This document shows, piece after piece, positions 11,655-47,402 of a DNA stretch of 64,000 bases. Positions within the stretch are counted from its first letter, which is position 1, and each line of letters starts with the position of its first letter. The translations under genes were made by a program, and so were the position numbers. The notes beneath the pieces are model-generated. The model was not told where the DNA came from. It saw only the letters and a program-made list of their open reading frames with translations, and made no database searches. Origin of the DNA: Solemya velum gill symbiont (lineage in GTDB: Bacteria; Pseudomonadota; Gammaproteobacteria; Chromatiales; Chromatiaceae); contig NZ_JRAA01000002.1 in NCBI RefSeq assembly GCF_000787395.1, forward strand, positions 186,001 through 250,000, read 5' to 3'.

Positions 11655-12724
11655 CGTGAATTCAATTTCCAAGTGCAACTCAACAGAGTTGGTTAGAGGG
11701 CAAGCTGCGGTAGCATAGGTAGCTTCTCTCACCGACCAAAGTTAGAGGAGCACCATGTACACGCAGCTTACCCAGGAAGAACGATACCAGATTCAGGCAC
11801 TGATGAAAGCAGGTCACAATCAAACAGAGATAGCCAAGATACTTGGGCGCCACAAATCCACTGTCAGCCGCGAACTGAGGCGTAACCGTGGCTTGCGCGG
11901 CTATCGCCCCAAACAGGCCCATCGGCTGTCTGTAGAGCGCCGTCAGAGCAAGAGCCAGCCCCGTATTGCCACTACCCACTGGGAGCGAGTCGAGCATCTG
12001 TTGCGCGAGGACTGGAGTCCGGAACAAATCAGCCTGTGGCTGTGCAATGAGGCTGACATTCAAATCTCTCATGAGTGGATTTACCAGTACGTTCTCCAGA
12101 ACAAATCCATGGGCGGTAACCTATACCGCCACCTGCGTTGCCAGAAGCAGCGTCGAAAGCGCTATGGCAGCTATAGCCGCCGAGGGCAACTGATTAACCG
12201 AGTCAGCATCGATGAACGTCCTGCCGTGGTTGATGAGCGTTCACGCTTCGGTGATTGGGAACTTGATACCATTATCGGAAAAGGCCACAAACAGGCCATC
12301 GTTTCAATCACCGAGCGTAAATCCCGATTGACGCTCATCCATAAGGTGGAGAGAAAAACCGCCAGCAACGTCACCAGCGCTATCCTCAAACTGCTCAAAC
12401 CCATCGCCGGCCGCGTTCACACGCTGACCTCAGATAATGGTAAGGAATTCGCCGGTCACGAGACCATCGCTAAAGGCCTCAGTGCCAGGTTCTTCTTTGC
12501 CCATCCCTATGCCTCCTGGGAACGTGGCTTGAATGAGAACACCAATGGACTCATTCGCCAATACTTCCCAAAGCATCGGGACTTTACAACCATCACTCAG
12601 GCGGAAATCAACCAGGTGATGAATAAACTGAACAATCGTCCCCGAAAATGTCTTGGCATTAAAACGCCCAATCAAGTATTTTTCGGGATTAACCCATCCG
12701 TTGCACTAGTGAGTTGAATCCGCG
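11655..12724 (+). mobile_element. IS30-family insertion sequence, copy 1 (1070 bp)
   Basis: The element is bounded by imperfect 25-base inverted repeats at 11655-11679 and 12700-12724 that share ATTCAA and AGTGCAAC. It is flanked by a three-base direct repeat ACA (11652-11654 and 12725-12727), as expected for IS30-type insertion. It carries one transposase gene. A second copy with the same ends and the same encoded protein lies at 44600-45669 in the opposite orientation. The clean duplication suggests copy 1 is a simple insertion between the tRNA-Leu terminator and the next gene. Confidence 0.9.
11755..12717 (+). CDS. IS30-family transposase (copy 1)
   Basis: The 320-residue transposase has an N-terminal helix-turn-helix (YTQLTQEERYQIQALMKAG, then KILGRHKSTVSRELRRN) that binds the element ends. 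The C-terminal integrase fold has DDE residues in GDWELDTIIGKG, LTSDNGKEF and WERGLNENTNGLIRQYFP. The length is normal for the family and no frameshift is seen, so it should be active. The protein is identical to the copy at 44607-45569, which implies recent spread. AGAGGAG precedes the ATG. Confidence 0.95.
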   Translation: MYTQLTQEERYQIQALMKAGHNQTEIAKILGRHKSTVSRELRRNRGLRGYRPKQAHRLSVERRQSKSQPRIATTHWERVEHLLREDWSPEQISLWLCNEADIQISHEWIYQYVLQNKSMGGNLYRHLRCQKQRRKRYGSYSRRGQLINRVSIDERPAVVDERSRFGDWELDTIIGKGHKQAIVSITERKSRLTLIHKVERKTASNVTSAILKLLKPIAGRVHTLTSDNGKEFAGHETIAKGLSARFFFAHPYASWERGLNENTNGLIRQYFPKHRDFTTITQAEINQVMNKLNNRPRKCLGIKTPNQVFFGINPSVALVS

Positions 12725-13799: not shown

Positions 13800-14606
13800 T
13801 TAGTTCATCGCCGGTTTCAGCTCCAGTGGAATGATGGATTCAGGAGCTGGAGGGCGATAGCCCAGCGAGCTATGTGGCCGCTTGGTGTTGTAATGTTTTC
13901 TCCATTGTTCAATGATCACTTTCGCTTCGTGTAGCGTGTAAAAGACCTCACCATTGAGCAATTCATCCCTGAACCGGGCATTGAAGCTCTCGCAGTAGCC
14001 GTTCTCCCAAGGTGAGCCTGGTTCGATGTATGCCGTTTTAGCGCCGACAGCAGCGATCCACTTCCTCACGGCTTCTGCAATAAACTCGGGGCCGTTATCC
14101 GAACGGATATAGGCCGGTACCCCACGCAGAATGAACAGGTCAGTCAGCACATCAATGACATCGGCTGAGTTCAACTTACGTTTCACCCGGATTGCCAGAC
14201 ATTCCCGACTGTATTCATCAATCAGGTTCAATGTCCGGAAGGCTCTGCCATCATCGGTTCTATGGTGGACAAAGTCGTAGGACCAGACATGATTTCTGTA
14301 TTGTGCACGGAGTCTGATACAAGAGCCATCATTGAGCCATAAACGGCCACGCGGCTTCTGCTTGGCAGGTATTTTCAGCCCCTCTTGTCGCCATAACCGC
14401 TCGACACGCTTGTCGTTAACTTGCCAGCCTGCCTCTCTCAGGAGAGCGGCGATACGACGGTAACCATAACGGCCATACTCCCTTGCTAGAGCGATCATAT
14501 CAGCGACAAGTCGTGTTTCATCACGACGCCCCTGTGGAATACGGCGCTGGGTTGAGCGATGTTGTCCGAGTACACGGCAAGCCCTGCGCTCGGAAACAGC
14601 CATCAT
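13800..14606 (-). CDS. IS3-family transposase OrfB (copy A)
   Basis: This is the catalytic part of the transposase, 268 residues from its first ATG. It has an HTH_21-like segment ([19 protein letters not shown]) and an integrase core with DDE residues in [18 protein letters not shown] and [15 protein letters not shown], ending [17 protein letters not shown]. Translation most likely starts in OrfA and shifts by -1 at a GGGAAAC site (minus strand, 14654-14660), since the OrfB frame stays open upstream as [11 protein letters not shown]-type sequence. It differs from copy B at scattered residues near the N-terminus. Confidence 0.93.
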
Positions 14607-14647: not shown

Positions 14648-14926
14648 TCAGAAGTTTCCCTTGGCAGCCTCCGACAGAATCTGCTTATCCAGTGTCAGAT
14701 CAGAAACGGCCTTGCGCAAACGTTCATTCTCCTTCTGTAGCCGTTTCAGTTCTTTTAACTGGTCAATCCCCATCCCACCGTACTTTTTGCGCCAGCGGTA
14801 GTAAGTCTGCTCAGTGATGCCAATTTCGCGGATCGCATCGATGCGGGCAGTGCCTTGTCCAACCAGGACTTCAACTTGCCGCAGTTTCTGGACGATTTCT
14901 TCCGGTTTGTGTCGCTTGATTCCCAT
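14648..14926 (-). CDS. IS3-family OrfA (copy A)
   Basis: The 92-residue protein begins [17 protein letters not shown] and has a Transposase_8-type helix-turn-helix ([20 protein letters not shown]). A leucine-zipper-like helix follows ([18 protein letters not shown]). It binds the element ends and joins with the frameshifted OrfAB product. A GGAGG lies upstream of the ATG. Confidence 0.92.
14654..14660 (-). promoter_or_regulatory. -1 frameshift heptamer GGGAAAC, IS3 copy A
   Basis: On the minus strand the OrfA codons GGA AAC at the end of orfA form the slippery heptamer G GGA AAC. A -1 slip joins OrfA to the OrfB frame three codons before the OrfA stop. The same site is present in copy B. Confidence 0.75.
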
Positions 14927-14983
14927 TTTCGGTCCTCCGTTTTACTCATCATAAGGGTGGACCAACTTATTGGGGGAGGATCA

Positions 14984-15255
14984 ACACGAAAGTAGATAAC
15001 CGCGTTCACTTTCACCGAGACATTGTCACGCGAGATAACATCCTGTTCAGGTACATCCATTACAACTGTGCGCAGGTCCACCCGGACCATCTGCTGGATT
15101 ATCGGGATGACGATAATAAGGCCGGGACCCTTGACCTTCCAGAAACGTCCCAGCGTGAAGATCACTCCTCGTTCGTACTCACGAAGAATAAAAATCGCCC
15201 AGAGCACCAGCAGTGCAATAAAGCCGAAAACCATATAACTTAGATAAGCGATCAT
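14984..15255 (-). pseudogene. Slipin (SPFH/stomatin) gene, 5' part only
   Basis: About 90 residues remain, beginning [18 protein letters not shown] (membrane anchor). The stomatin-type start of the SPFH domain follows: [37 protein letters not shown] and [17 protein letters not shown]. Slipins have about 250 residues, so two thirds are missing at the IS3 junction. The start ATG directly follows the nfeD stop, the usual NfeD-slipin pairing in which a membrane protease acts on its stomatin partner. The frame runs on into the IS as unrelated sequence, so any product would be chimeric. Confidence 0.9.
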
Positions 15256-16630
15256 TTAACTATCCTCCTGTTTATTTTCCGGTTCTATATCCAGAATCAA
15301 ACCATCCAAGCCAGTCACACGTACCTGCTCTCCCCTGGTTACTTGAACAGGACTACGAGCCTGCCACAGTTCCCCATGAACACGAATCCGTCCTTTACCA
15401 AGAAAATCTTCCAGCACCTCGGCTTGCATCCCCACGAGCTCCTCAGCACCACTGACTACAGAGCGTCGATGCGACTTGATTGCCATACCGACAATCAACA
15501 CGAGCAAAGCTGCGCTGACGAGGGCGAAAGCACCGATTAGGGGAAGTGAGATACCAAAACCGGGCACCTCGGTATCAATAAGGATCACCGAGCCAATGAC
15601 AAATGCGATAATTCCACCGATGCCAAGGATGCCAAAACTTGGCTCAAAGGCCTCGCCAACCATTAACGCCACACCGAGCAGAATCAGGAACAGGCCGGCA
15701 TAATTGATAGGCAGCAGCTGAAACGCATATAGCGCAAGCAGCAGGCAGATGGCACCTGTCACTCCCGGCAGAATGCTTCCCGGGTTGGAGAATTCTAGAA
15801 TCAGCCCGTAAATGCCGATCAGCATCAGGATATAGGCGACGTTGGGGTTGGTAATAACGGCCAGTATCTGGCTCAATGTGATTTAACAGCAATCCTTCGG
15901 TTGCCAGTGTGACTTCCTGCCCAAGGATATTGATTCTTCGCCCATCCAGCAGGACAAGCAGTTTGCTCATATCCGATGCCACTATATCGATAACACCCAG
16001 TTCCAGGGCCGATCTTGCATCCAGGCTTGCCGCTTCGCGCACTGCCTTTTCTGCCCAGTCTGCGTTGCGCCCCCTGAGGCTGGCAAGACTGCGAATATAG
16101 GCAACTGCATCATTAATCGCTTTTTGGCTTTTTGCATCAAGGCTTACCGGTTGCTCCTGGCTCTTTTCTGCATCCGGCCGGGCCTCTTCCACAGGCTCTT
16201 TGCTGCCAGGTGTTGCAGGGGGAGAAACGGTCGGTGCGATACTGACCGGCGTGGCAGCCCCCAGGTTGGTGGCAGGCGCCATTGCCGCAACGTGGCTGGC
16301 GTAAAGAAGAAAGGTACCGGCACTTGCAGCCCGGGCACCATTGGGGAATACATAACCGACCACGGGCACTGGCGAAGCAAGGATCACCTTGTTGATATCT
16401 CGCATCGAGGACTCGAGTCCTCCCGGAGTATCAATACGTAAAATGATCAGCTGAGCCTGTTCTTCAGCCGCAAGGTCAATGGCGCGTTCGACGTAGTCAG
16501 TGGTTGCCGGTCCAATAGCTCCGTCAATATCAATCCACACCCCGCTTCTGGAGCCCGCACCCTCCTGCTGTGCCAATAGGATGAGTGGCCAGAGAAACAG
16601 GAGCAACAAGAACAGATGTTTCGTTTTCAT
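15256..16630 (-). pseudogene. nfeD: NfeD-type membrane serine protease, frameshifted
   Basis: The N-terminal frame starts at the ATG 16628-16630 with a signal peptide (MKTKHLFLLLLFLWP). It includes a ClpP-like protease domain (IILRIDTPGGLESSMRDI and GARAASAGTFLLYASHVAAM, with the expected catalytic serine). After EGLLLNHIE, near 15880, the frame drifts into nonsense. The other frame then continues with ILAVITNPNVAYILMLIGIY, four membrane segments and the C-terminal OB-fold domain, ending at 15256. Relatives have a few extra residues between HIE and LLAVIT, so a short deletion that is not a multiple of three is likely. With the truncated slipin downstream, the locus is probably dead unless this is a sequence error. 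Confidence 0.85.
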
Positions 16631-16803
16631 GGCATTTACTGTTCCAGGTTCATTTCGAGGACAACCCGTCAGCACCGATCTGACTGATGCGATTTACATT
16701 ACATGGTTGTACTCATCTAGTAACAGTATAGATTGAAAAATGATAATTCACTTACAGATTAATATGTTATGGCTTCCTGGCTGTTGAAAAGGCTGAATTC
16801 TGT

Positions 16804-24433: not shown

Positions 24434-25852
24434 ATGAACTTTATTAACAGCTATGCTCAACTTCCGGAGCATTTTTACGCCAAAATCCGGACAGCCAATG
24501 CTCCAGAACCCGAACTGATCGCCTGGAACAAGGAGCTGGCCATGCAACTCGGCCTGAACGAGCTGGATGCCGACGAAGCCAGGCTGGCACGTATATTCAG
24601 TGGCAATGAGCCGTTACCTGGCGGTGAAACCATTGCATTGGCATACGCTGGTCACCAGTTTGGCCATTTTGTGCCACAACTTGGTGATGGACGCGCGGCC
24701 CTGATCGCTGAAATCGTCAGCCCCGTCGATGGAGAGCGTTACGATATTCAGCTCAAGGGATCTGGCCAAACACCCTTCTCCCGCAATGGCGATGGTAAAT
24801 CTTCGCTAGGGCCGGTTATACGGGAATTCCTGCTCAGCGAGGCCATGCACAAGCTTGGTGTACCAACCACACGCGCTCTGGCAGCCGTCAGCACAGGTGA
24901 GGACGTGGTTCGCGAAACACGCGAACCGGGAGGCGTCATGACACGTGTAGCATCCAGCCATATCCGTGTCGGTACCTTTCAATACTTTGCCTCGAGAGAC
25001 GATAAAGCTGCAATGAAGGAGCTAACCAACTACGCGATTGCCCGCCACTACCCTGATGCCGCATCGGCTGAACAGCCCGTGTTCGCATTTTTCTCGGCAG
25101 TTGTTAAAAAGCAGGCCAGACTGGTTGCTCACTGGATGGCGCTGGGATTTATACATGGTGTCATGAATACCGACAACTCGGCCATCTCCGGTGAAACGCT
25201 CGACTATGGCCCATGTGCTTTCATGGACGAATTCCATATCAACAAGGTCTTCAGCTCCATCGATCGACAGGGTCGATATGCATATGGCCAACAAGCCAAT
25301 ATGGCGCAATGGAACCTGACACGGCTGGCAGAGTGCCTGATGATGCTCGACGGAGATCAGAAAGACTACGAGTCGCTACTGGACCAGTTTATACCGGCGT
25401 TCGAAGAGCACTACTTTGCCTTTATGGGTAACAAACTTGGCCTCGCCGAGCTGACCGATGATGACCCTGAGCTGATCACGGCATGGCTGCAACACCTGCA
25501 GGACAATCAACTCGATTACAGCCAGAGCTTCCGCCAGCTCGCCACTTGCCTGGACAACTCCGAATCCATCAGCTTTGGTGACTTTGAAGCCCGCTGGCTC
25601 AAGCGTATTGATCAACAGGATGGCGGGCGTGAGGAAGCAGGCCGTCTCATGGCATCAAGTAATCCTGTTGTCATCCCCCGCAACCACCAGGTTGAACGGG
25701 CCATTGAAGCGGCGTTTGAGGATGATTTCAGCGTGTTCAATGAACTACGGCAAGTGCTTGCTTCTCCATTCACCGAGCAGCCGGGGTTGGAACACTATTC
25801 AATTCCCCCTGAATCTCACGAGCGGGTGATGGCAACCTTTTGCGGGACCTGA
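24434..25852 (+). CDS. selO: SelO-family protein AMPylase
   Basis: The 472-residue protein is a SelO/YdiU (UPF0061) pseudokinase, a family shown to transfer AMP from ATP to hydroxyl side chains of proteins during redox stress. Seen motifs are YAGHQFGHFVPQLGDGRA (ATP site), DIQLKGSGQTPFSRNGDGK, GVMTRVASSHIRVGTFQYF and HGVMNTDNSAISGETLDYGP, which holds the metal-binding Asn/Asp. The C-terminus ends at ATFCGT and lacks the extra cysteine or selenocysteine tail of some homologues. It converges with the formyltransferase gene with only 13 bases between stops. Confidence 0.93.
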   Translation: MNFINSYAQLPEHFYAKIRTANAPEPELIAWNKELAMQLGLNELDADEARLARIFSGNEPLPGGETIALAYAGHQFGHFVPQLGDGRAALIAEIVSPVDGERYDIQLKGSGQTPFSRNGDGKSSLGPVIREFLLSEAMHKLGVPTTRALAAVSTGEDVVRETREPGGVMTRVASSHIRVGTFQYFASRDDKAAMKELTNYAIARHYPDAASAEQPVFAFFSAVVKKQARLVAHWMALGFIHGVMNTDNSAISGETLDYGPCAFMDEFHINKVFSSIDRQGRYAYGQQANMAQWNLTRLAECLMMLDGDQKDYESLLDQFIPAFEEHYFAFMGNKLGLAELTDDDPELITAWLQHLQDNQLDYSQSFRQLATCLDNSESISFGDFEARWLKRIDQQDGGREEAGRLMASSNPVVIPRNHQVERAIEAAFEDDFSVFNELRQVLASPFTEQPGLEHYSIPPESHERVMATFCGT

Positions 25853-25865
25853 TGCGCCCCCCTTC

Positions 25866-26933
25866 TCATCCCTGTGCGAGCAGAGAGTTCCCGGTTGATT
25901 GATGACGGCTCCTGCGCTTGTGCCCGACAAGATCAAGAAAGGAAGAATCATCAGCGAGTTTAATCAGCGCTTCCTTCAAAGCCTCTCTTTTGAGCTGGTA
26001 ATTGAGATGACGCAGCGACTCTTCCGTAAGGAATTCCTTCTGAGGCAAGCTTGCGCTGACACAATGAATCACTTCGCCGTTATCAACACGTGGGGAGACG
26101 TAATGCACACTGGCCGCTGTGTGTAAAACAGGCGCGACCCTCCTTGCGGTTCTGTTTCTGCCCTTGTAAACAACCTGAATCTCTTCACCTTCCGGCAGAT
26201 CGACATGGTGCTTGTCATCAACAATGACATAACCGTGGTGCGCACGGGTCAGTGCATCCCTTGTTGGTGTGGCTCCGGGCAGCCTGTCCGGCCTGCCAGT
26301 GTCTGTAACAGCCGGGTGAATATTGATAAACATGCATTCAGATGCTTCACTCCCGGTACTGCCGTAACCCAGCAGTTCATCACCAATAATCCGCACGTAG
26401 CTGTCGCTAATGACAATGTCAGCGCCCAGCTTATCCAGCTGCTGCGCAATTTGTGCTTCGTAGTGTGACTTTCTGACACGCTTTTCTGCTCTATTCTCAG
26501 GGCATGTGCCCGCCCAGCGACTGGAAGGAATGCAGCAGGTGATCTGGTCTAGTGTGACGCTCTCCTCCACGCCCTGACCGGAAATCCCTTGGCTCACAGG
26601 CATTTGACTGTTCCACAACGGTTGATCACCACCGAGAAGGCGGGTGTCATCGTCATCAACGATCACTCCAGTCAGCTTATATCGCCCATGGAGAGGTGAC
26701 TCCGGGCTGTTCAACTGATATACCAGCTCCTCAAGACTTCCTGTGCGCCGTGGATGAAAACAACCGGTTTCCAGATCGCAAACAACCCGGCCGACACCCT
26801 CCTTGTGCAGCTCGCGAAGACTGGTGAGATAGACAATAGACAATTGGCTAGCGGAATCCTGTACCGTGCAGACAGGACTCCCCTGCATCTCGAGTTGATT
26901 GGCGAATCTCTGTTCGGATATCTGCATATTCAT
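25866..26933 (-). CDS. Formyltransferase-fold enzyme linked to CphA-like ligase
   Basis: The 355-residue protein has an unassigned N-terminal region and a formyltransferase-type catalytic core. FINIHPAVTDTGRPDRLPGA at residues 202-221 holds the expected Asn204 and His206. ATPTRDAL follows, and TAASVHYVSPRVDNGEVIH holds the expected aspartate at 284. This Asn-x-His...Asp set is the catalytic triad of GART and Met-tRNA formyltransferases, which move a formyl group from 10-formyl-tetrahydrofolate to an amine. The N-terminus does not look like PurN, Fmt or PurU. It starts 15 bases after the CphA-like gene, so it probably formylates that enzyme's product or substrate. No signal peptide; cytosolic. 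Confidence 0.7.
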   Translation of the reverse strand: MNMQISEQRFANQLEMQGSPVCTVQDSASQLSIVYLTSLRELHKEGVGRVVCDLETGCFHPRRTGSLEELVYQLNSPESPLHGRYKLTGVIVDDDDTRLLGGDQPLWNSQMPVSQGISGQGVEESVTLDQITCCIPSSRWAGTCPENRAEKRVRKSHYEAQIAQQLDKLGADIVISDSYVRIIGDELLGYGSTGSEASECMFINIHPAVTDTGRPDRLPGATPTRDALTRAHHGYVIVDDKHHVDLPEGEEIQVVYKGRNRTARRVAPVLHTAASVHYVSPRVDNGEVIHCVSASLPQKEFLTEESLRHLNYQLKREALKEALIKLADDSSFLDLVGHKRRSRHQSTGNSLLAQG

Positions 26934-26948
26934 GGAATGGAGTTTACT

Positions 26949-29372
26949 TCACAGCCTGAGCCATTCAAACCCCCGTTGTTCCAGCCATTCATCAAAATGA
27001 ACGCTGCTAAAAGTTGTATCCACCAGCAGATCGTCATCATTCAGTGAATCATATGCAAGCTTCATCGCATCTTCAGAGGATGGAACAACCTGAATCTGCT
27101 CTTCAGGTACTCCGCATGCTTTCAGCTCTGTGGCAATCAACATGGGAACATCCTCGGGCTGGCGCTCTCCCCTTAGTTCACAGTAATTGGTGCATACATA
27201 ACTGGAAAACAGCCCAGCTATTGCACGTGCCTTATCCCTGATAAATGCATCAGGACGATCTCCGACAGCGCAGAGAAGCAGATGTTTTTGGCCGGGGATA
27301 TCCATCTGCCCGGCAAATTCGGCAGCCTCGCGCATCGAGTATGAACTGTCAGCCTGGCAGACAACCAGGCTGTATGGAAGATCCTGGAAATAGTTGTTTC
27401 TTCCAGGATTATTCTTCATGGTCGATTTGAATCCGGAAAGTGCCTCTTGAATAGTATCGAAATCAACACCCACACCATGCGCTGCAGCCATGGCAAAAAG
27501 CGCATTGATCAGTGCAGGACGATTTCTGCCCTCCCAGCTGTCAGGAATATCCCTGCATGACAATTGGCCAATCTGTTTTGAACCTTCCCATAAATGCAAT
27601 TCAGGCTCTGAAGCATCACTCGACAGGTAAGCCACCATTCCACCATTACGCTGATGCGCCAGGAGTTCCCGGTTATCAGATACCATGCTGACAAGAGATG
27701 TTCGAGGTGCAGTAATGCTTTCCCGTGCAGCCAGGCACAAGGGATCATCTGCATTCAGCACCGCCAGTTTCCTGGCATTCTGGACAACCTGCCGTTTAAC
27801 ACGGGAGAGTTCTTCGCGGGTGTGAATACCGTTCAGACCGAGATGGTTGTCATGTACATTCAGCATCACCCCGACATCGACTGCATCGATGATCATGCCG
27901 TACTTGACCAGTCCACCACGCGCCAACTCGAAGACACCCGCTTCAACTGCACTGTCCTGCATCAACAATGAAGCGACTCCACCCCCGGCCAAATCACCTT
28001 GCATCACCTGTTCATCACCAATCCAGGCTCCCAGTGTTGTCGATAGCGCCACGTTTTTTCCTGATTGCGAAAGAATATCTGCCACCATTCTGCTCGTGGT
28101 CGTTTTACCAACGCTGCCGGTAATACCGACCGTGGGAATTCTTCCATCTGAATTTTCCGGGAACATTTTGCGAATCATGGGCCCGGCAAGCTCCCGTTTT
28201 GGGTTGGCTGCCAGATGCGACTGCAACTCGGGATTCGAATTAACACCAGTAATAGCACCTGGGACTTCCCTCCAGGAACAACTGATATCCGGCGACTGAA
28301 AAATGATTTCAGCCACATCCATTCCCAGAATACGCGTTGCTCGTTCTGCCAGACGGCTGTTATGCGGGTGAATTTCGTCTGTTACATCGACCGGCTTCTC
28401 GCTCATGGTTGCAGCAACAAGTGATCCATTCACTACCAGCAGTCGGTAGTCGCTGCCCTGGATATATCGCTCTACAAGCAGACCATGTCCAAAAGAAGCA
28501 GCAGTCTCAAGTGCAGAGTCCAATTCTCCCTGGCTGTTGATGTTAAGCGTGACGCCTTTTCCCACAATTTCCGCATTAGGTCTCACAACCAGTGGAAAGC
28601 CCATCTCCCGTGCAATCTTTTTCGCCTGTTCAATGGAAGGTGCAGCTTGCACTCCAGCAACAGGCAGCTTGTTCCTGGTAAGAATCTGCATCGCCAGCGG
28701 CTTGTTTTCCTGCAATCGTGTGACAACACCACTCGTATCATCAGTCAGAACTCCGCTGATGCGTTTTCGGAAAACTCCCTGCCCCAATTGCACGATCTCT
28801 CCTTTCCCCGTCATTCTGTAGTGAGGGATTCCCTGCTGAATAGCTGCCCTGACCAGGATCCTGGTCGAGTGATCGAGAGCATGGTTACCTGCAAGTGACC
28901 GCGCTTTCTGAAAACCCTTCTTGAAATGAGAACCCATTTGATCCTGCTTTCTCCGGTCAAGTGCAGGAATCGCATTAACAAGTGCCAATGAAAACTCACA
29001 TGCAGAAGAGCCAATCGCTGCATGATCACAAGCTAAAAAGAGACTGATTCGATTGTTTTTCCTGCCAAACAATTGAACCGGCGCAGGCTGCAGGCAGTAG
29101 TCGCGAACACAGAGGGACGCTATGCTTGAAAAGAGCGCGACCAGGGGTAAGCGTGCTTCGCACAGAGTCTCCGGTGAAGAGAGAAGCTGAGTATCAGCAG
29201 AAAAAGGGATCGACTTGCCAAGAAACTCAATTAGATAAGCGGCCTCTTCCCGGTCAGGCTTCCAGTCAAACAGAGTTGTCGTCTCATCGTCACTTATCGA
29301 CAACAAAATACCGGAATTTGAAGAATATAAATTCGGGCCGCGATAATACTGAGCGGTATCAAAAGTAAACAT
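26949..29372 (-). CDS. Cyanophycin-synthetase-like ATP-grasp/Mur ligase
   Basis: The 807-residue protein has the domain order of cyanophycin synthetase: an N-terminal domain (1-215), an ATP-grasp ligase (about 216-410) and a Mur ligase (about 411-800). The ATP-grasp part shows FPLVVRPNAEIVGKGVTLNI and LLVERYIQGSDYRLLVVNG, and the Mur P-loop is GITGSVGKTTTSRM at 417-430. Two motifs depart from CphA. The EVN metal site reads GVN (366-380 region). The Mur C-terminal DYAHNP-type motif after NPGRNNYFQ reads CQADSSYS (near 672-679). It is shorter than CphA (about 870-900). The substrate is thus probably not plain aspartate/arginine. It is followed by a formyltransferase gene. Confidence 0.75.
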   Translation of the reverse strand: MFTFDTAQYYRGPNLYSSNSGILLSISDDETTTLFDWKPDREEAAYLIEFLGKSIPFSADTQLLSSPETLCEARLPLVALFSSIASLCVRDYCLQPAPVQLFGRKNNRISLFLACDHAAIGSSACEFSLALVNAIPALDRRKQDQMGSHFKKGFQKARSLAGNHALDHSTRILVRAAIQQGIPHYRMTGKGEIVQLGQGVFRKRISGVLTDDTSGVVTRLQENKPLAMQILTRNKLPVAGVQAAPSIEQAKKIAREMGFPLVVRPNAEIVGKGVTLNINSQGELDSALETAASFGHGLLVERYIQGSDYRLLVVNGSLVAATMSEKPVDVTDEIHPHNSRLAERATRILGMDVAEIIFQSPDISCSWREVPGAITGVNSNPELQSHLAANPKRELAGPMIRKMFPENSDGRIPTVGITGSVGKTTTSRMVADILSQSGKNVALSTTLGAWIGDEQVMQGDLAGGGVASLLMQDSAVEAGVFELARGGLVKYGMIIDAVDVGVMLNVHDNHLGLNGIHTREELSRVKRQVVQNARKLAVLNADDPLCLAARESITAPRTSLVSMVSDNRELLAHQRNGGMVAYLSSDASEPELHLWEGSKQIGQLSCRDIPDSWEGRNRPALINALFAMAAAHGVGVDFDTIQEALSGFKSTMKNNPGRNNYFQDLPYSLVVCQADSSYSMREAAEFAGQMDIPGQKHLLLCAVGDRPDAFIRDKARAIAGLFSSYVCTNYCELRGERQPEDVPMLIATELKACGVPEEQIQVVPSSEDAMKLAYDSLNDDDLLVDTTFSSVHFDEWLEQRGFEWLRL

Positions 29373-29437
29373 TCTGTTAAATCATTCGGGAAGATGATGT
29401 CATGATGTAAAACAATATCACCCGGAGAGGAGTGAGA

Positions 29438-30385
29438 CTAGCCGGACTTATCTTCTACCCGACGCCAGTTATCTCCCTCGCGAAACACCTCGTAGCGACA
29501 CCAGCGGGTAAATTCCGCAGAGGTAGCAGAGCCATTGGATGGTGCGCCCTCTCCTTCAACAATACGATAAATGATACCGTCGTCGCGACCTGCTTCATCT
29601 GACGAGATGTCGATGATGCGCCTGATCGACCAGGCGTCTCCCGGTTTACCATTACTGTAGTAATGGCCGGACATCAGCTCATCGGGAGATAAACGCCTGT
29701 TTTGCCGACTGCGTGTTGCCAACTCATAAATGCGCAGCAGGTCATTCTCACTGACATCGATATAGGAGTTGATCTCACTGAGGGCGTAAACAAAGTCCTC
29801 ATGGGCAATCGCCTCGTAGGATTCAGACGAAAGCTGTTCTTTTTTCACGGCCAGGCGCTGATACAGCCAGGTTGGATAACGGCGCCACTCGAAAAAGAGA
29901 TTGAACAGAATCGCAGTGACAAGAATTGCCAGTGTGTTGGCAAGAACAGGCGTGAGCACAAACTGGTATCCAAGTGCTTCAATTTCACTACCGCCAATCA
30001 CGGCAACCAGTGCAGTTGCCCCGCCCGGCGGGTGTATGCAGCGCAGGTAATGCATGGCGCCGACAGCAAGTGCAACAGCCAGTGGTGCAGCAAGCAGATC
30101 GGAGGGAATCATCAGTGAACAAGTGACACCAAGCAGCGCTGAAACGAGATGCCCGCCTACTACAGACCAAGGCTGTGCCAAGGCACCGTGTGGAACTGCG
30201 AAGAGTAATACTGCCGAGGCACCCATTGAAGCGATAACCAGGTAGGAGTCTTCATCTCCAAGGAAATAGCGACTGGTCAGTACAACCGCCGCTATACCAA
30301 GAAATGCACCCAGTGCCGAGACAATCCGTTCCCTGTGGCTAACCTCACGCCACTCTATACCCAGGATATCGAAGAGTGTTTTCAT
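29438..30385 (-). CDS. HPP-family membrane protein with extra C-terminal domain
   Basis: The first 180 of 315 residues form an HPP domain with about five membrane helices. It includes the family signature CIHPPGGATAL, plus MGASAVLLFAVPHGALAQPW and ALGYQFVLTPVLANTL. HPP proteins are linked to nitrite transport in cyanobacteria and chloroplasts; that role is not shown here. The remaining 135 residues are a soluble region (RRLSPDELMSGHYY, DDGIIYRIVEGEG, EFTRWCRYEVFREGDNWRRV) that I cannot assign. It lies 34 bases after the Usp gene and 65 bases before the CphA-like gene, all on the same strand. Confidence 0.85.
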   Translation of the reverse strand: MKTLFDILGIEWREVSHRERIVSALGAFLGIAAVVLTSRYFLGDEDSYLVIASMGASAVLLFAVPHGALAQPWSVVGGHLVSALLGVTCSLMIPSDLLAAPLAVALAVGAMHYLRCIHPPGGATALVAVIGGSEIEALGYQFVLTPVLANTLAILVTAILFNLFFEWRRYPTWLYQRLAVKKEQLSSESYEAIAHEDFVYALSEINSYIDVSENDLLRIYELATRSRQNRRLSPDELMSGHYYSNGKPGDAWSIRRIIDISSDEAGRDDGIIYRIVEGEGAPSNGSATSAEFTRWCRYEVFREGDNWRRVEDKSG

Positions 30386-30419
30386 GTCGATGACTGGCGA
30401 CAGGAGATTCTGGTGAAAC

Positions 30420-30845
30420 TCAACGCACCACGGTCACAGAACAGGGCGCATGCCGTACAACTCTCGAAGCGTTGTGGCCTATCAGGTAGTCCTTGATGCC
30501 ATCATGTCCTGATGCGACTACAATCACATCTGCATTAATCTCTTTCGCCATCTCGATAATCTCATTGTAGACAGTACCTTCTGCGACGATACTTCCATAT
30601 TGAATATCGTCAGGAAGATGATCCTTCTCAAATGCCTCCAGCGCCGCGAGGGCTTTCTCCTCAAGTTCCTTCTTGTAGTCCTCGGGAAAATACTGATCAA
30701 CAATTGCCATACCATAATCAGGTATCACGTTCAGCAGGTGCAAAGTGCCACCTGATGACCTGACATATTCAATCGCCACCGGCAACGCCTTTTTCCATGA
30801 CGACTCATGATGCAAATCAACTGCAAGTAAAACCTCTTTGAACAT
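30420..30845 (-). CDS. UspA-family protein next to TRAP permease
   Basis: The 141-residue universal stress protein has the ATP-binding signature GHDGIKDYLIGHNASRVVRH near 113-132 and a C-terminal CSVTVV strand. The N-terminus KEVLLAVDLHHESSWKKAL is the usual first strand and helix. It starts 9 bases after the TRAP permease stop. The Usp protein TeaD is encoded next to the TeaABC TRAP transporter of Halomonas and tunes its activity; a similar role here is inference from position. Confidence 0.88.
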   Translation of the reverse strand: MFKEVLLAVDLHHESSWKKALPVAIEYVRSSGGTLHLLNVIPDYGMAIVDQYFPEDYKKELEEKALAALEAFEKDHLPDDIQYGSIVAEGTVYNEIIEMAKEINADVIVVASGHDGIKDYLIGHNASRVVRHAPCSVTVVR

Positions 30846-30854
30846 TGTTGCCCC

Positions 30855-33478
30855 CTATGCAGAAGAAGAAAGTCTGCGACGCTGTATAATAATAATAATA
30901 AACAACAATACGACTGCAGGAGTAAAGAATAACTCCTTTGGCATGCGTTCAGCAGGCAGCTCGATACGTTTCACGCTAACGGGTTCATCCGCATAAAAGT
31001 CAAACTGCAGCAGAGTCTGCGACAGCGCTGTGTTTAACATCGGCTCTTCCAGCAGGGCCCTGTCCCCTTGCACATCAACCATCAGGCCTGCTGCTGACAT
31101 AAGGCGCTCATCACCAGTGCCGCTCTCACCGAGTGGTGCATAGAGCGTCAACTGCTTGATTTTACCGTTTCGGCTGTCAGGGCCCTCTACTACCATGCGC
31201 AGCTGATCATCAGCCGGTGCGGCTTGTGCATGTTGCAGGATCTCTATTCCTGGCCTGTATTCATAGGGTGATGAAACCTGGTCAAGCCAGAAACCGGGAC
31301 GAAACATGGTGAAAGCGACCAGCAGCAGCAAGAGTGTCTCCCACCACCTGTTGCGTACGAACATGAAACCCTGCGTGGCAGAGGCGAATGCCATCATCGC
31401 AACCAGGGCGACAAGGAAAACAAACACTGCCTGAACCGGACCGACGTTGATCAGCAACAGGTCCGTATTGAAAATGAACAGGAATGGCAGAATGGCAGTA
31501 CGAATATCATAGGTGAAGCCCTGAATACCGGTACGAATGGGATCTCCACCTGAGATTGCCGAGGCTGCGAAAGCCGCAAGTCCCACCGGCGGCGTATCGT
31601 CGGCAAGAATACCAAAATAGAAGACAAACATATGTACTGCGATCAGCGGAACAATCAGTCCCGACTGGGCGCCGACAGAGATAATCACTGGCGCCATCAG
31701 GCTCGATACCACGATGTAGTTAGCCGTGGTCGGCAGGCCCATACCAAGTATCAGGCTCAGCAGAGCGACCAGGAACAGCATCAGCATCAGGTTACCGCCG
31801 GAGAGAAACTCGACAAATTCACCCATGATCTGGTGCGCACCTGTGAGTGATATTGTGCCGACAATAATACCAGCCGCACCCGTGGCCACGGCAATGCCAA
31901 TCATGTTGCGTGCACCGGCAACCATGCCGTCGATCAGCTGTGACCAACCACGCTTGATGCCATCTGCAATACTCCCCTGCTTGCGCATAATGGACTTGAG
32001 GCTGTGTTGGGTCAGGGCAATAAAAATCATTCCCATGGTAGCCCAGAATGCAGAGAGCCCGGGTGAGAAACGTTCGATCATCAGGCACCAGACAAGCACG
32101 ACGATTGGCAACAGGTAATAGAGTCCTGTTCTTACCGTCGGACGCAGTTCCGGTTTGACCAGCATTGGACGACTGAGGTCATCCAGGTCGAGATCGGGTA
32201 TGCCTGCGGCATATTTTGCCAACAGGATGTAGCCGATGAGAAAAAGACCCATGGCGATATATATGGTGCTGTCACCAAAAACTCCCTTGGTCCAGCCGAG
32301 TCCGTAGTAGAGCCCGGCTGCCAGTCCGGAGACAACAAGAAAACCCAGCAGTACATTGGCGATACGTGAAATCAGCTTTCCGGGCTGTGAGCCCCTTGGT
32401 AAACCCTGAAGACCCAGTTTCATCGCCTCAAGATGAACGATGTAAAGCAGCGCAATATAGGAGACCAGTGCAGGCAGGAATGCGTGCCGGATCACCTCAA
32501 GATAGCTGACACCAACATACTCGATCATGAGGAATGCCGCAGCACCCATAACCGGTGGTGTGAGCTGGCCATTAGTACTCGACGCCACCTCGACAGCACC
32601 CGCCTTCTCCGGTGGAAAACCGGTCCGCTTCATCAGTGGAATTGTGAATGTACCTGTTGTTACCGTGTTGGCAATCGAGGAGCCGGAGATCATTCCGGTC
32701 ATGGCAGATGAGAGCACCGACGCCTTGGCCGGTCCGCCTCTGAAGTGACCAAGCATTGCAACAGCCGTCTTGATAAACCAGGCACCGGCACCTGCTTTTT
32801 CAAGTATCGAACCAAACAGAACAAACAGGAATATCATGGATGCGGAGACACCCAGTGCGACACCGAAAACACCTCGGTCTGCATCCAGTAGTGGCCCAGC
32901 GCCTTTGAGAGTGAGGCACCCTTCCACTGAATCACTTCCGGCAACCAGCTGTAATGACCGAAAAAGACATACATCATGAATACCGATGCGACCACCACCA
33001 GGGGCAAGCCAAGAGATCGATAGACGGAAATCAGCAGCAGCGTGATACCAACAGCAGAAACGACCAGGTCTGTCGTTGTCCACAAGCCAGGGCGCAGGGA
33101 TATTTCACTCTTGAAAGTCGGCAGGTAAAGACAGACTGCAACACCGACCAGGGCGAGTACCCAGTCATACCAGGGAATCCTGTCTCGCGGCGATTTGCTG
33201 AGGAGCGGAAACGCGGTAGCGGCAAGAAACATAGCAAATGCAAGATGGATTGCACGTGTTTCATCCGAGTTGAATGTCAGGTTGACACCCAGGGTCGTTG
33301 TCAGCCAGAAAGGCAGCGTGGAAGAGACGTAAATCTGAAACAGTGACCAGGCAAGCGGAACGAGTATCAGCAGTGTGCCTGCCATACCGACAGGATGACG
33401 TGCGCCAGTATCGCTCTCGGCGACCATCTCCTCGATACTGCTCTCCCGCGTAGTGGATTTAGTCTGCACTTCAGTCAT
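30855..33478 (-). pseudogene. TRAP transporter fused permease (4TM-12TM), frameshifted
   Basis: The N-terminal frame (ATG 33476-33478) encodes a small-permease-like part with membrane helices and reads in frame up to HYWMQTE. The following frame resumes with VFGVALGVSASMIFLFVLFG and continues through the DctM-like large permease with GMISGSSIANTVTTGTF and LILGMGLPTTANYIVVSSLM, ending at 30855. Adding one G at the GG of GAGGTG (CC at 32872-32873 on the plus strand) restores MQTEGVFGVALG. The protein would then have about 874 residues. Fused permeases of this type work with TAXI receptors, and one is encoded just upstream. The uptake system is disabled if the deletion is real. Confidence 0.87.
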
Positions 33479-44599: not shown

Positions 44600-45669
44600 C
44601 GCGGATTCAACTCACTAGTGCAACGGATGGGTTAATCCCGAAAAATACTTGATTGGGCGTTTTAATGCCAAGACATTTTCGGGGACGATTGTTCAGTTTA
44701 TTCATCACCTGGTTGATTTCCGCCTGAGTGATGGTTGTAAAGTCCCGATGCTTTGGGAAGTATTGGCGAATGAGTCCATTGGTGTTCTCATTCAAGCCAC
44801 GTTCCCAGGAGGCATAGGGATGGGCAAAGAAGAACCTGGCACTGAGGCCTTTAGCGATGGTCTCGTGACCGGCGAATTCCTTACCATTATCTGAGGTCAG
44901 CGTGTGAACGCGGCCGGCGATGGGTTTGAGCAGTTTGAGGATAGCGCTGGTGACGTTGCTGGCGGTTTTTCTCTCCACCTTATGGATGAGCGTCAATCGG
45001 GATTTACGCTCGGTGATTGAAACGATGGCCTGTTTGTGGCCTTTTCCGATAATGGTATCAAGTTCCCAATCACCGAAGCGTGAACGCTCATCAACCACGG
45101 CAGGACGTTCATCGATGCTGACTCGGTTAATCAGTTGCCCTCGGCGGCTATAGCTGCCATAGCGCTTTCGACGCTGCTTCTGGCAACGCAGGTGGCGGTA
45201 TAGGTTACCGCCCATGGATTTGTTCTGGAGAACGTACTGGTAAATCCACTCATGAGAGATTTGAATGTCAGCCTCATTGCACAGCCACAGGCTGATTTGT
45301 TCCGGACTCCAGTCCTCGCGCAACAGATGCTCGACTCGCTCCCAGTGGGTAGTGGCAATACGGGGCTGGCTCTTGCTCTGACGGCGCTCTACAGACAGCC
45401 GATGGGCCTGTTTGGGGCGATAGCCGCGCAAGCCACGGTTACGCCTCAGTTCGCGGCTGACAGTGGATTTGTGGCGCCCAAGTATCTTGGCTATCTCTGT
45501 TTGATTGTGACCTGCTTTCATCAGTGCCTGAATCTGGTATCGTTCTTCCTGGGTAAGCTGCGTGTACATGGTGCTCCTCTAACTTTGGTCGGTGAGAGAA
45601 GCTACCTATGCTACCGCAGCTTGCCCTCTAACCAACTCTGTTGAGTTGCACTTGGAAATTGAATTCACG
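44600..45669 (-). mobile_element. IS30-family insertion sequence, copy 2 (1070 bp)
   Basis: Ends and length match copy 1 (11655-12724), in the opposite orientation. Flanking triplets are TCC (44597-44599) and TTC (45670-45672), so there is no matching duplication. On one side it abuts a glycosyltransferase gene that has lost its 3' end, on the other a small membrane protein gene outside the polysaccharide cluster. This points to a deletion or other rearrangement at the element. Confidence 0.9.
44607..45569 (-). CDS. IS30-family transposase (copy 2)
   Basis: The 320-residue protein is identical to the transposase at 11755-12717, with the same helix-turn-helix and DDE motifs. The identity argues for very recent transposition or gene conversion. 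It is intact and should be active. Confidence 0.95.
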   Translation of the reverse strand: MYTQLTQEERYQIQALMKAGHNQTEIAKILGRHKSTVSRELRRNRGLRGYRPKQAHRLSVERRQSKSQPRIATTHWERVEHLLREDWSPEQISLWLCNEADIQISHEWIYQYVLQNKSMGGNLYRHLRCQKQRRKRYGSYSRRGQLINRVSIDERPAVVDERSRFGDWELDTIIGKGHKQAIVSITERKSRLTLIHKVERKTASNVTSAILKLLKPIAGRVHTLTSDNGKEFAGHETIAKGLSARFFFAHPYASWERGLNENTNGLIRQYFPKHRDFTTITQAEINQVMNKLNNRPRKCLGIKTPNQVFFGINPSVALVS

Positions 45670-46595: not shown

Positions 46596-47402
46596 ATGAT
46601 GCCTGTCTCAGAGCTAAGAGCCTGCCGTGTACTCGGACAATATCGTTCAACCCAGCGCCGTATTCCACAGGGGCCTCGTGATGAAGCACGACTTGTCGCT
46701 GACATGATTGCACTGACAAGGGAGTATGGCCGTTATGGTTACCGTCGTATCGCCGCTCTCCTGAGAGAGGCTGGCTGGCAGGTCAACGACAAGCGTGTCG
46801 AGCGCCTGTGGCGCAAAGAGGGGCTAAAAGTACCCAGTAAGCAGAAGCCGCGTGGCCGTTTATGGCTCAATGACGGTTCCTGTATCAGACTCCGTGCACA
46901 ATTCAGAAATCATGTCTGGTCCTACGACTTTGTCCACCATAGAACCGATGATGGCAGAGCCTTCCGGACATTGAACCTGATTGATGAATACAGTCGGGAA
47001 TGTCTGGCAATCCGGGTGAAACGTAAGTTGAACTCAGCCGATGTCATTGATGTGCTGACTGACCTGTTCATTCTGCGTGGGGTACCGGCCTATATCCGTT
47101 CGGATAACGGTCCCGAGTTTATTGCTGAGGCAGTGAGGAGGTGGATCGCTGCTGTCGGCGCTAAGACGGCATACATCGAACCAGGCTCACCTTGGGAGAA
47201 CGGCTACTGCGAGAGCTTCAATGCCCGGTTCAGGGATGAGTTGCTCAATGGTGAGGTCTTTTACACGCTACACGAAGCGAAAGTGATCATTGAACAATGG
47301 AGAAAACATTACAACACCAAGCGGCCACATAGCTCGCTGGGCTATCGCCCTCCAGCTCCTGAATCCATCATTCCACTGGAGCTGAAACCGGCGATGAACT
47401 AA
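46596..47402 (+). CDS. IS3-family transposase OrfB (copy B)
   Basis: The 268-residue catalytic domain has the same DDE motifs as copy A ([24 protein letters not shown]). It differs at a small number of positions, for example RACRVLGQY against RACRVLGQH. The frame is open upstream to 46551 and beyond, fitting translation as an OrfAB fusion. It is intact. Confidence 0.93.
   Translation: MMPVSELRACRVLGQYRSTQRRIPQGPRDEARLVADMIALTREYGRYGYRRIAALLREAGWQVNDKRVERLWRKEGLKVPSKQKPRGRLWLNDGSCIRLRAQFRNHVWSYDFVHHRTDDGRAFRTLNLIDEYSRECLAIRVKRKLNSADVIDVLTDLFILRGVPAYIRSDNGPEFIAEAVRRWIAAVGAKTAYIEPGSPWENGYCESFNARFRDELLNGEVFYTLHEAKVIIEQWRKHYNTKRPHSSLGYRPPAPESIIPLELKPAMN

Follow-up and report, generated by a model that had tools for sequence, protein, structure and literature searches.

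The window analyzed here, a 64,000-nucleotide stretch from the genome of the Solemya velum gill symbiont (assembly GCF_000787395.1, contig NZ_JRAA01000002.1, positions 186,001 to 250,000), contains two adjacent genes on the minus strand that encode an 807-residue ligase derived from cyanophycin synthetase (CphA), denoted LIG (26949..29372), and a 355-residue formyltransferase of the PvdF family, denoted FT (25866..26933). LIG combines a degenerate ATP-grasp (G) half with an intact Mur-ligase (M) core. It is quite possible, though short of probable, that the pair forms a two-gene unit in which a CphA-derived ligase with a dead G site and an active M site, together with the formyltransferase, makes a small formylated amide or isopeptide and not cyanophycin.

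Degenerate ATP-grasp half and retained Mur core of the ligase

Multiple sequence comparisons agree with the cyanophycin synthetase-like domain order that an initial annotation of this locus had assigned to LIG: the cyanophycin synthetase profile TIGR02068 matches it with E = 1.2e-141, Pfam detects RimK (residues 222-323) followed by Mur_ligase_M (417-562), and solved cyanophycin synthases match it with a best E of 9.8e-104. Its TIGR02068 score of 473.5 bits falls below the curated equivalog cut-off of 850 bits, which by score places LIG outside CphA1, and LIG likewise lies outside the N-acetylglutaminylglutamine synthetase family (TIGR03103, 67.3 bits against a cut-off of 569).

We aligned 48 CphA-like proteins of at least 750 residues; L051 (724 residues), L038 and L034 dropped out by this threshold, and the overlapping L149 was removed (handles starting with L denote loci and those starting with G genomes). 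Residue counts given below refer to the 46 rows that remain after subtraction of LIG and its sister from genome G262. The ATP-grasp half of LIG (residues 161-395; 28188..28892, minus strand) is about 75 residues short and has lost catalytic residues, a feature overlooked in the initial annotation. The stretch corresponding to the omega lobe consists of 8 residues in LIG (about residues 320-328; 28389..28415, minus strand), compared with 83-84 in 44 of the 48 rows and 20-25 in L003, L050 and L040. In CphA1 numbering, E450 is replaced by Gly (Glu in 43 of the 46 other rows), R458 by Gln (Arg in 42), and K261 by Arg (Lys in 45). A study of TeCphA1 (PMC9427784) assigns Mg chelation to E450 and D431, contact with the phosphates of ATP to K261 and K220, and the holding of the aspartate to R323, R458 and the omega loop (N394, S396); alanine mutation of N394, R323 or R458 impairs activity. 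Position 267, where mutation of the histidine inactivates the G domain of SuCphA1 (PMC9262961), is Val in LIG; this column is variable (Gln in 23 and His in 18 of the 46 rows) and was given no weight. Judged by the aspartate-binding omega loop, E450 and R458, the ATP-grasp site of LIG is incomplete by comparison with CphA1, and we predict that it is catalytically dead.

The Mur core (residues 396-655; 27408..28187, minus strand) retains the P-loop GSVGKTTT, with Lys423 and Thr424, as well as Glu482 and His510; in CphA1 numbering, K499, T500, T522, E558 and H586 are all kept, including the ATP-site residues K499, T500 and E558, and D585 is replaced by Asn (Asn509). In the Mur lid (residues 656-800; 26973..27407, minus strand), the DYAHNP motif, whose first Asp is kept in 45 of the 46 other rows, has given way to CQADSS. 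From the retained core we infer that the M site is active. LIG is therefore likely to be an amide ligase with a single site, of the Mur type, whose ATP-grasp scaffold is dead; in this respect it would mirror CphA2.

With respect to the origin of this condition, LIG and the G262 ligase group together with support of 100/100 in the 48-row tree, with end branches of 1.21 and 0.41, respectively. This tree carries a long-branch warning, the joining of the LIG clade to the CphA of this genus; the join disappeared in the later M-domain tree and was not used. An order-wide search added two members to the clade, the ligases of G859 and G817. In a tree of the M domain only (the M-domain trees comprise 30 rows, with L004, L167 and near-copies left out), all four proteins lie on one side of a branch with support of 95/94, and the nearest-sister fork between LIG and G262 is weak (84/73). 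Common to all four are D585N, an altered lid motif and a GS[VL]GKTT P-loop. In the ligases of G262, G859 and G817, both E450 and the omega lobe are still present (position 458 is Gly in that of G859), and the loss of the G site and the omega lobe is therefore most simply placed on the LIG branch.

Constraint on the two halves of LIG is uneven. Identity to the G859 ligase in the Mur core is nearly the same for LIG (57.3%) and G262 (58.1%), whereas in the G domain it is 40.4% and 47.7%, respectively. When similarity to outside rows was compared over 41 of the 46 (L003, L040, L050, L004 and L167 left out), LIG fell below G262 in 41/41 comparisons for the G domain and in 19/41 for the Mur core. 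For 21 control pairs taken from beyond the clade, which are 45-62% identical in M, the mean identity in G is 65.6% (minimum 53.8%); the value for LIG and G262 is 45.4%.

The formyltransferase and the distribution of the pair

FT scores 26.9 bits against Formyl_trans_N, just over the cut-off of 26.1, and is matched better by PvdF (6cul, E = 2.2e-13). An AlphaFold model of FT built from 24 sequences (predicted template modelling score 0.71) retrieved PvdF chains as its seven best Foldseek matches in the PDB (E = 2.4e-15 to 1.7e-13, target template modelling score 0.74-0.77). The formyltransferase fold and the Asn-His-Asp triad that had been noticed at the outset are thus borne out: every one of the 23 aligned PvdF relatives has the same residues as FT at N204, H206 and D284, and fold and triad together place FT in the PvdF family. 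The PvdF study (PMC7926923) gives N168, H170 and D229 as catalytic, with D229 required, and lists G147 and N254 for hydroxyornithine binding. The motifs of three relatives are 61, 25 and 21 residues apart, in agreement with the published PvdF numbering; therefore, S178 of FT stands at the position of G147, and R308 at that of N254. Given that both substrate-binding residues are replaced, FT probably formylates something other than the hydroxyornithine used by PvdF.

The two frames are open over 3.5 kb, as initially annotated, with an intergenic gap of 15 bases (26934-26948) between LIG and the downstream FT. Together they occupy a 3.6-kb segment (25853..29437) between convergent SelO and HPP genes. 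In G001, the only congener compared (91% complete, 380 contigs), the TRAP, Usp and HPP genes, whose DNA is 88% identical over 29442-33391, are followed directly by SelO (86%), with 37 bases between the HPP frame and SelO. LIG and FT have no meaningful match on the corresponding G001 contig; in the whole G001 assembly, FT has no match at E 1e-4, and the best LIG match is the CphA of G001 itself (35%). LIG and FT are therefore present or absent together, and the upstream neighbors do not belong to the unit. The initial annotation had correctly placed the HPP, Usp and transporter genes upstream and on this strand, but the uninterrupted order in G001 rules them out as members of the system (HPP was named by Pfam; Usp and TRAP/TAXI were named by eye). 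HPP stretches from four other genomes (L185-L188, 5.1-12 kb) show no SelO match beside HPP, and the difference from the single congener may reflect either a gain or a loss of the unit. Borders of a mobile element were sought in 25780-29500 and rejected: inverted repeats are absent from this region, and direct repeats amount to two short families. A terminator-like hairpin just after the HPP stop (29418..29435, minus strand) is a weak prediction, with 8 such sites in the region compared with 5.0 (standard deviation 1.8) in shuffles.

As for other features of the neighborhood, the TRAP permease (30855-33478) consists of two overlapping frames (742 and 214 residues) here and of a single 843-residue frame in G001, where HPP is split over two frames. 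Transposases recognized by eye are IS30-like (11755-12717 and 44607-45569) and IS3-like (13800-14606 and 46596-47402), one copy of each type lying in or next to exopolysaccharide-type genes at 45.6-50.8 kb. Stomatin-like and NfeD-like frames, also named by eye (14755-16675), overlap or look broken.

The initial annotation had proposed a search for the pair beyond close relatives and had named lack of conservation there as a refutation; no second LIG-FT pair was found in any genome searched, and the idea of a conserved operon was abandoned. With FT as the query, there were no other hits among 369 genomes of the class (E 1e-6) or 190 of the order (E 1e-4), and 9 others among 398 genomes of the phylum, all at the PvdF level (E = 1e-14 to 2e-7); the genome of the window itself, which alone gave a strong hit, is counted in each of the three totals. 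A first peptide-pattern scan of contigs confirmed no FT relatives among 19 pattern matches, and in a second one none of the best 80 of 197 confirmed relatives rose above the PvdF level (E no stronger than 2e-21, identity 27-33%), with no CphA-like match in the DNA stretches around these 80 loci; the exact patterns of such scans can miss divergent orthologs. Searches with FT also returned 7 plasmid records, at the PvdF level, and nothing from phages. With LIG as the query, the only proteins nearer than CphA1 were those of G262 in the class (1 of 339 genomes) and G859 in the order (1 of 195); none was found in 396 genomes of the phylum, and within the family and order of G262 itself, G262 stood alone of 6. 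A blastn search (distant mode) with the LIG-FT unit found no match in plasmids, and the loci of the G262, G859 and G817 ligases contain no FT match. The genome draws overlap between searches, so that the totals are not additive, and the large-set searches scored the best few candidates per genome, so that omega-less proteins are perhaps undercounted.

Recurrent loss of the G site and other CphA-derived proteins

The combination of features seen in LIG, namely a short omega stretch, replacement of E450 by Gly or Ala, loss of R458, and retention of the Mur Lys, Thr/Ser, Glu and His, recurs in two genes on one G015 contig, in one gene on a Deinococcus taeanensis plasmid, and in G848. The starred branches force at least three changes in both M-domain trees (four were counted in the later tree), and a single origin of the first four omega-less rows is rejected by the approximately unbiased test (p = 9.5e-29); because the group was defined with a tree already in view, this p does not belong to a hypothesis stated in advance. 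The test covers four rows; the fifth, G848, joined the later tree only, in which G848 (1.61) and G817 (2.26) have long branches. We take this as at least three independent origins, predicted from sequence, of CphA-like proteins with a dead G site and retained Mur residues. The Deinococcus deserti plasmid 3 protein L051 (L051:5236-7410; 724 residues), which has CphA N and Mur domains and no ATP-grasp match in Pfam, is perhaps a further case.

The gene of the omega-less G848 protein (L195:4909-7332; 807 residues) has an arginase-family gene as its direct neighbor, and genes for an aldehyde dehydrogenase and an ornithine-cyclodeaminase-like protein lie close by; this neighborhood fits a link to basic amino acids, although the lineage differs from that of LIG. 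The two omega-less G015 genes (L039:3332-5863 and L040:2552-5218) share a 26-kb contig with glycosyltransferase genes, and the longest frame of one of them overlaps the end of a DUF6065 gene. Within the LIG clade, the G859 ligase (L194:9343-12018) immediately follows an asparagine-synthase-like gene, and PGA_cap, glycosyltransferase, TylF and radical SAM genes occur in the same stretch.

The 2.7-Mb genome that encodes LIG also encodes four G-only CphA-derived proteins (L033:9996-11831, L034:3904-5856, L035:2750-4570 and L036:2775-4640), which keep the omega lobe, K220, K261, R309, E450 and N452 and are devoid of the Mur P-loop. Their neighbors are of a tailoring type and comprise a BKACE-GNAT fusion, a ketosynthase-acyltransferase protein with methyltransferases, a P450 with a UbiA-type prenyltransferase, and a Cys/Met pyridoxal phosphate enzyme. 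The same genome contains one full CphA-like protein of 873 residues (L033:5913-8534), with Glu at the position of D585 and Leu at that of the lid His; its gene is divergent from a BKACE-GNAT fusion and a G-only ligase, an arrangement also found in G001. No match to Peptidase_S51, which we take to be the family of the cyanophycinases, was detected in the genome.

Proposed function, alternatives and comparison with known systems

We propose that LIG descended from a full two-site CphA-like enzyme in which the backbone-extending ATP-grasp site died. The Mur site would use ATP to activate a carboxylate and join an amine to it, the amine most likely being a basic amino acid or a derivative, and the acceptor being a side-chain or terminal carboxylate of a molecule made elsewhere; its supply by one of the G-only enzymes would be speculation. 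FT would transfer a formyl group from N10-formyl-tetrahydrofolate to a nitrogen, either in the building block or in the product. The outcome would be a small formylated amide or isopeptide, and FT may act by capping through N-formylation. The case for joint action of the two proteins consists in their adjacency and shared presence.

Several observations weigh against this proposal. The pair is present in one genome, so that the adjacency is a single case. The long branch of LIG is compatible with decay, and relaxed constraint is not confined to the G domain, given that LIG is also below G262 in similarity to outside rows for the lid (38/41) and the N domain (30/41). Some of the G divergence belongs to the clade as a whole, since identity in this domain is only 47.7% between the intact ligases of G262 and G859. 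Furthermore, the Asn at position 585 is unusual (Asp in 43 of the 46 other rows), the G-site residues K220, R309, D431 and N452 are retained, and the FT model is of moderate quality (mean predicted local distance difference test 65).

In one alternative, LIG would be a decaying CphA-like gene next to an unrelated FT, the pairing being an accident of insertion and nothing being made: the pair was found in one genome and is missing in the congener, the G domain, N domain and lid have all diverged along a long branch, and the omega lobe is gone. We consider this somewhat unlikely, because both frames remain open, the Mur core is as conserved as in the sisters, the Mur catalytic residues and the FT triad are intact, and the same loss recurs in other lineages that retain the Mur residues. 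Decoration of a surface glycan, whereby LIG would couple an amino acid to the carboxylate of a sugar, with formylation by FT, draws on the glycosyltransferase genes near the G859 and G817 ligases and the omega-less G015 pair, and on the exopolysaccharide-type region at about 45.6-50.8 kb of the window (by eye); LIG and FT themselves are not part of a glycan cluster, however, and neither, by eye, is the G262 sister gene, which makes such a role quite improbable. A hydroxamate (siderophore-like) unit, in which FT would formylate an N-hydroxyamine as PvdF does and LIG would join the product to a carboxylate, agrees with PvdF being closest to FT both in sequence and in fold, but appears very unlikely in view of the Ser and Arg at the G147 and N254 positions and the lack of CphA-like genes at PvdF loci (best 80 of 197). 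In addition, no credible PvdA was recognized in the genome: the search with the PvdA profile PF13434 found nothing PvdA-like over the full length, the two hits being short (26.4 and 20.4 bits, 24.3 with neighbors, against a cut-off of 21.3; coverage about 73 of 339 positions) and located in frames that by eye resemble the flavoprotein disulfide reductases dihydrolipoamide dehydrogenase and glutathione reductase. PF13434 is a blunt test for PvdA, with matches in 12 of 14 control genomes. Finally, the two-site ligase of the initial annotation, making an amide polymer capped or activated by formylation, is highly improbable despite the CphA domain order and the four retained G-site residues, since LIG lacks the Mg ligand E450, R458, K261 and the omega loop that binds aspartate, its score is below the CphA1 cut-off and no Peptidase_S51 match exists in the genome; with the ATP-grasp site apparently dead, a polymer of amides on an Asp backbone is unlikely.

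Beyond the proposed unit of LIG and FT, it is conceivable, although unlikely, that CphA chemistry has been repeatedly split into M-only modules (LIG and its relatives) and G-only amide-forming modules that recruit tailoring enzymes, with LIG and FT being the first to build an N-formylated isopeptide, perhaps on the acceptor made by a G-only ligase. In the field, CphA1 is studied as a polymerase with two sites, and CphA2 as a derivative with a single one. If our proposal holds, ligases that retain only the Mur site and arose several times would be natural single-step amide synthases, FT would be a new tailoring partner for a CphA-derived ligase, and the G-dead ligases would provide ready-made controls for the interdependence of the two CphA sites. 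The literature searched, to which most subscription journals did not belong, yielded in its accessible parts no report of such a pair or of a G-dead CphA.

Compared with CphA1, LIG has the N, ATP-grasp, Mur core and Mur lid domains in the same order and the Lys, Thr, Glu and His of the Mur site, and differs in the missing omega lobe, E450, R458 and K261, in D585N, and in the replaced DYAHNP motif. Its genomic setting differs as well: PMC10206079 reports that cphA1 clusters with cyanophycinase in 535 of 658 genomes and that dipeptidases also cluster with it, and the main text of that paper contains no word starting with 'formyl', in line with the initial view that a ligase next to a formyltransferase, here in a genome with no cyanophycinase-family match, is unlike known CphA operons. 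The same source describes CphA2 as using a single active site, and LIG would resemble it as a CphA relative with one presumed working site. The pattern in LIG, with the Mur residues kept, is the reverse, whereas the four G-only proteins of the same genome show the CphA2-type pattern; in CphA2, the single working site is the ATP-grasp one, the Mur site having been lost. The G262, G859 and G817 ligases share with LIG the altered M-domain signature, but keep the omega lobe and E450 and have no FT match at their loci. FT, in turn, shares with PvdF the fold, the catalytic triad and the N-terminal VYxxSLR motif, and differs in overall sequence (30-37% identity), in the residues at G147 and N254, in an insertion within 236-258 that adds about 19 residues, in a C-terminal extension, and in its occurrence in a genome in which no credible PvdA was recognized; the characterized member of the PvdF family formylates a side-chain N-hydroxyamine. 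CphA ligases and PvdF formyltransferases are the known systems on which the combination of LIG and FT is a variation.

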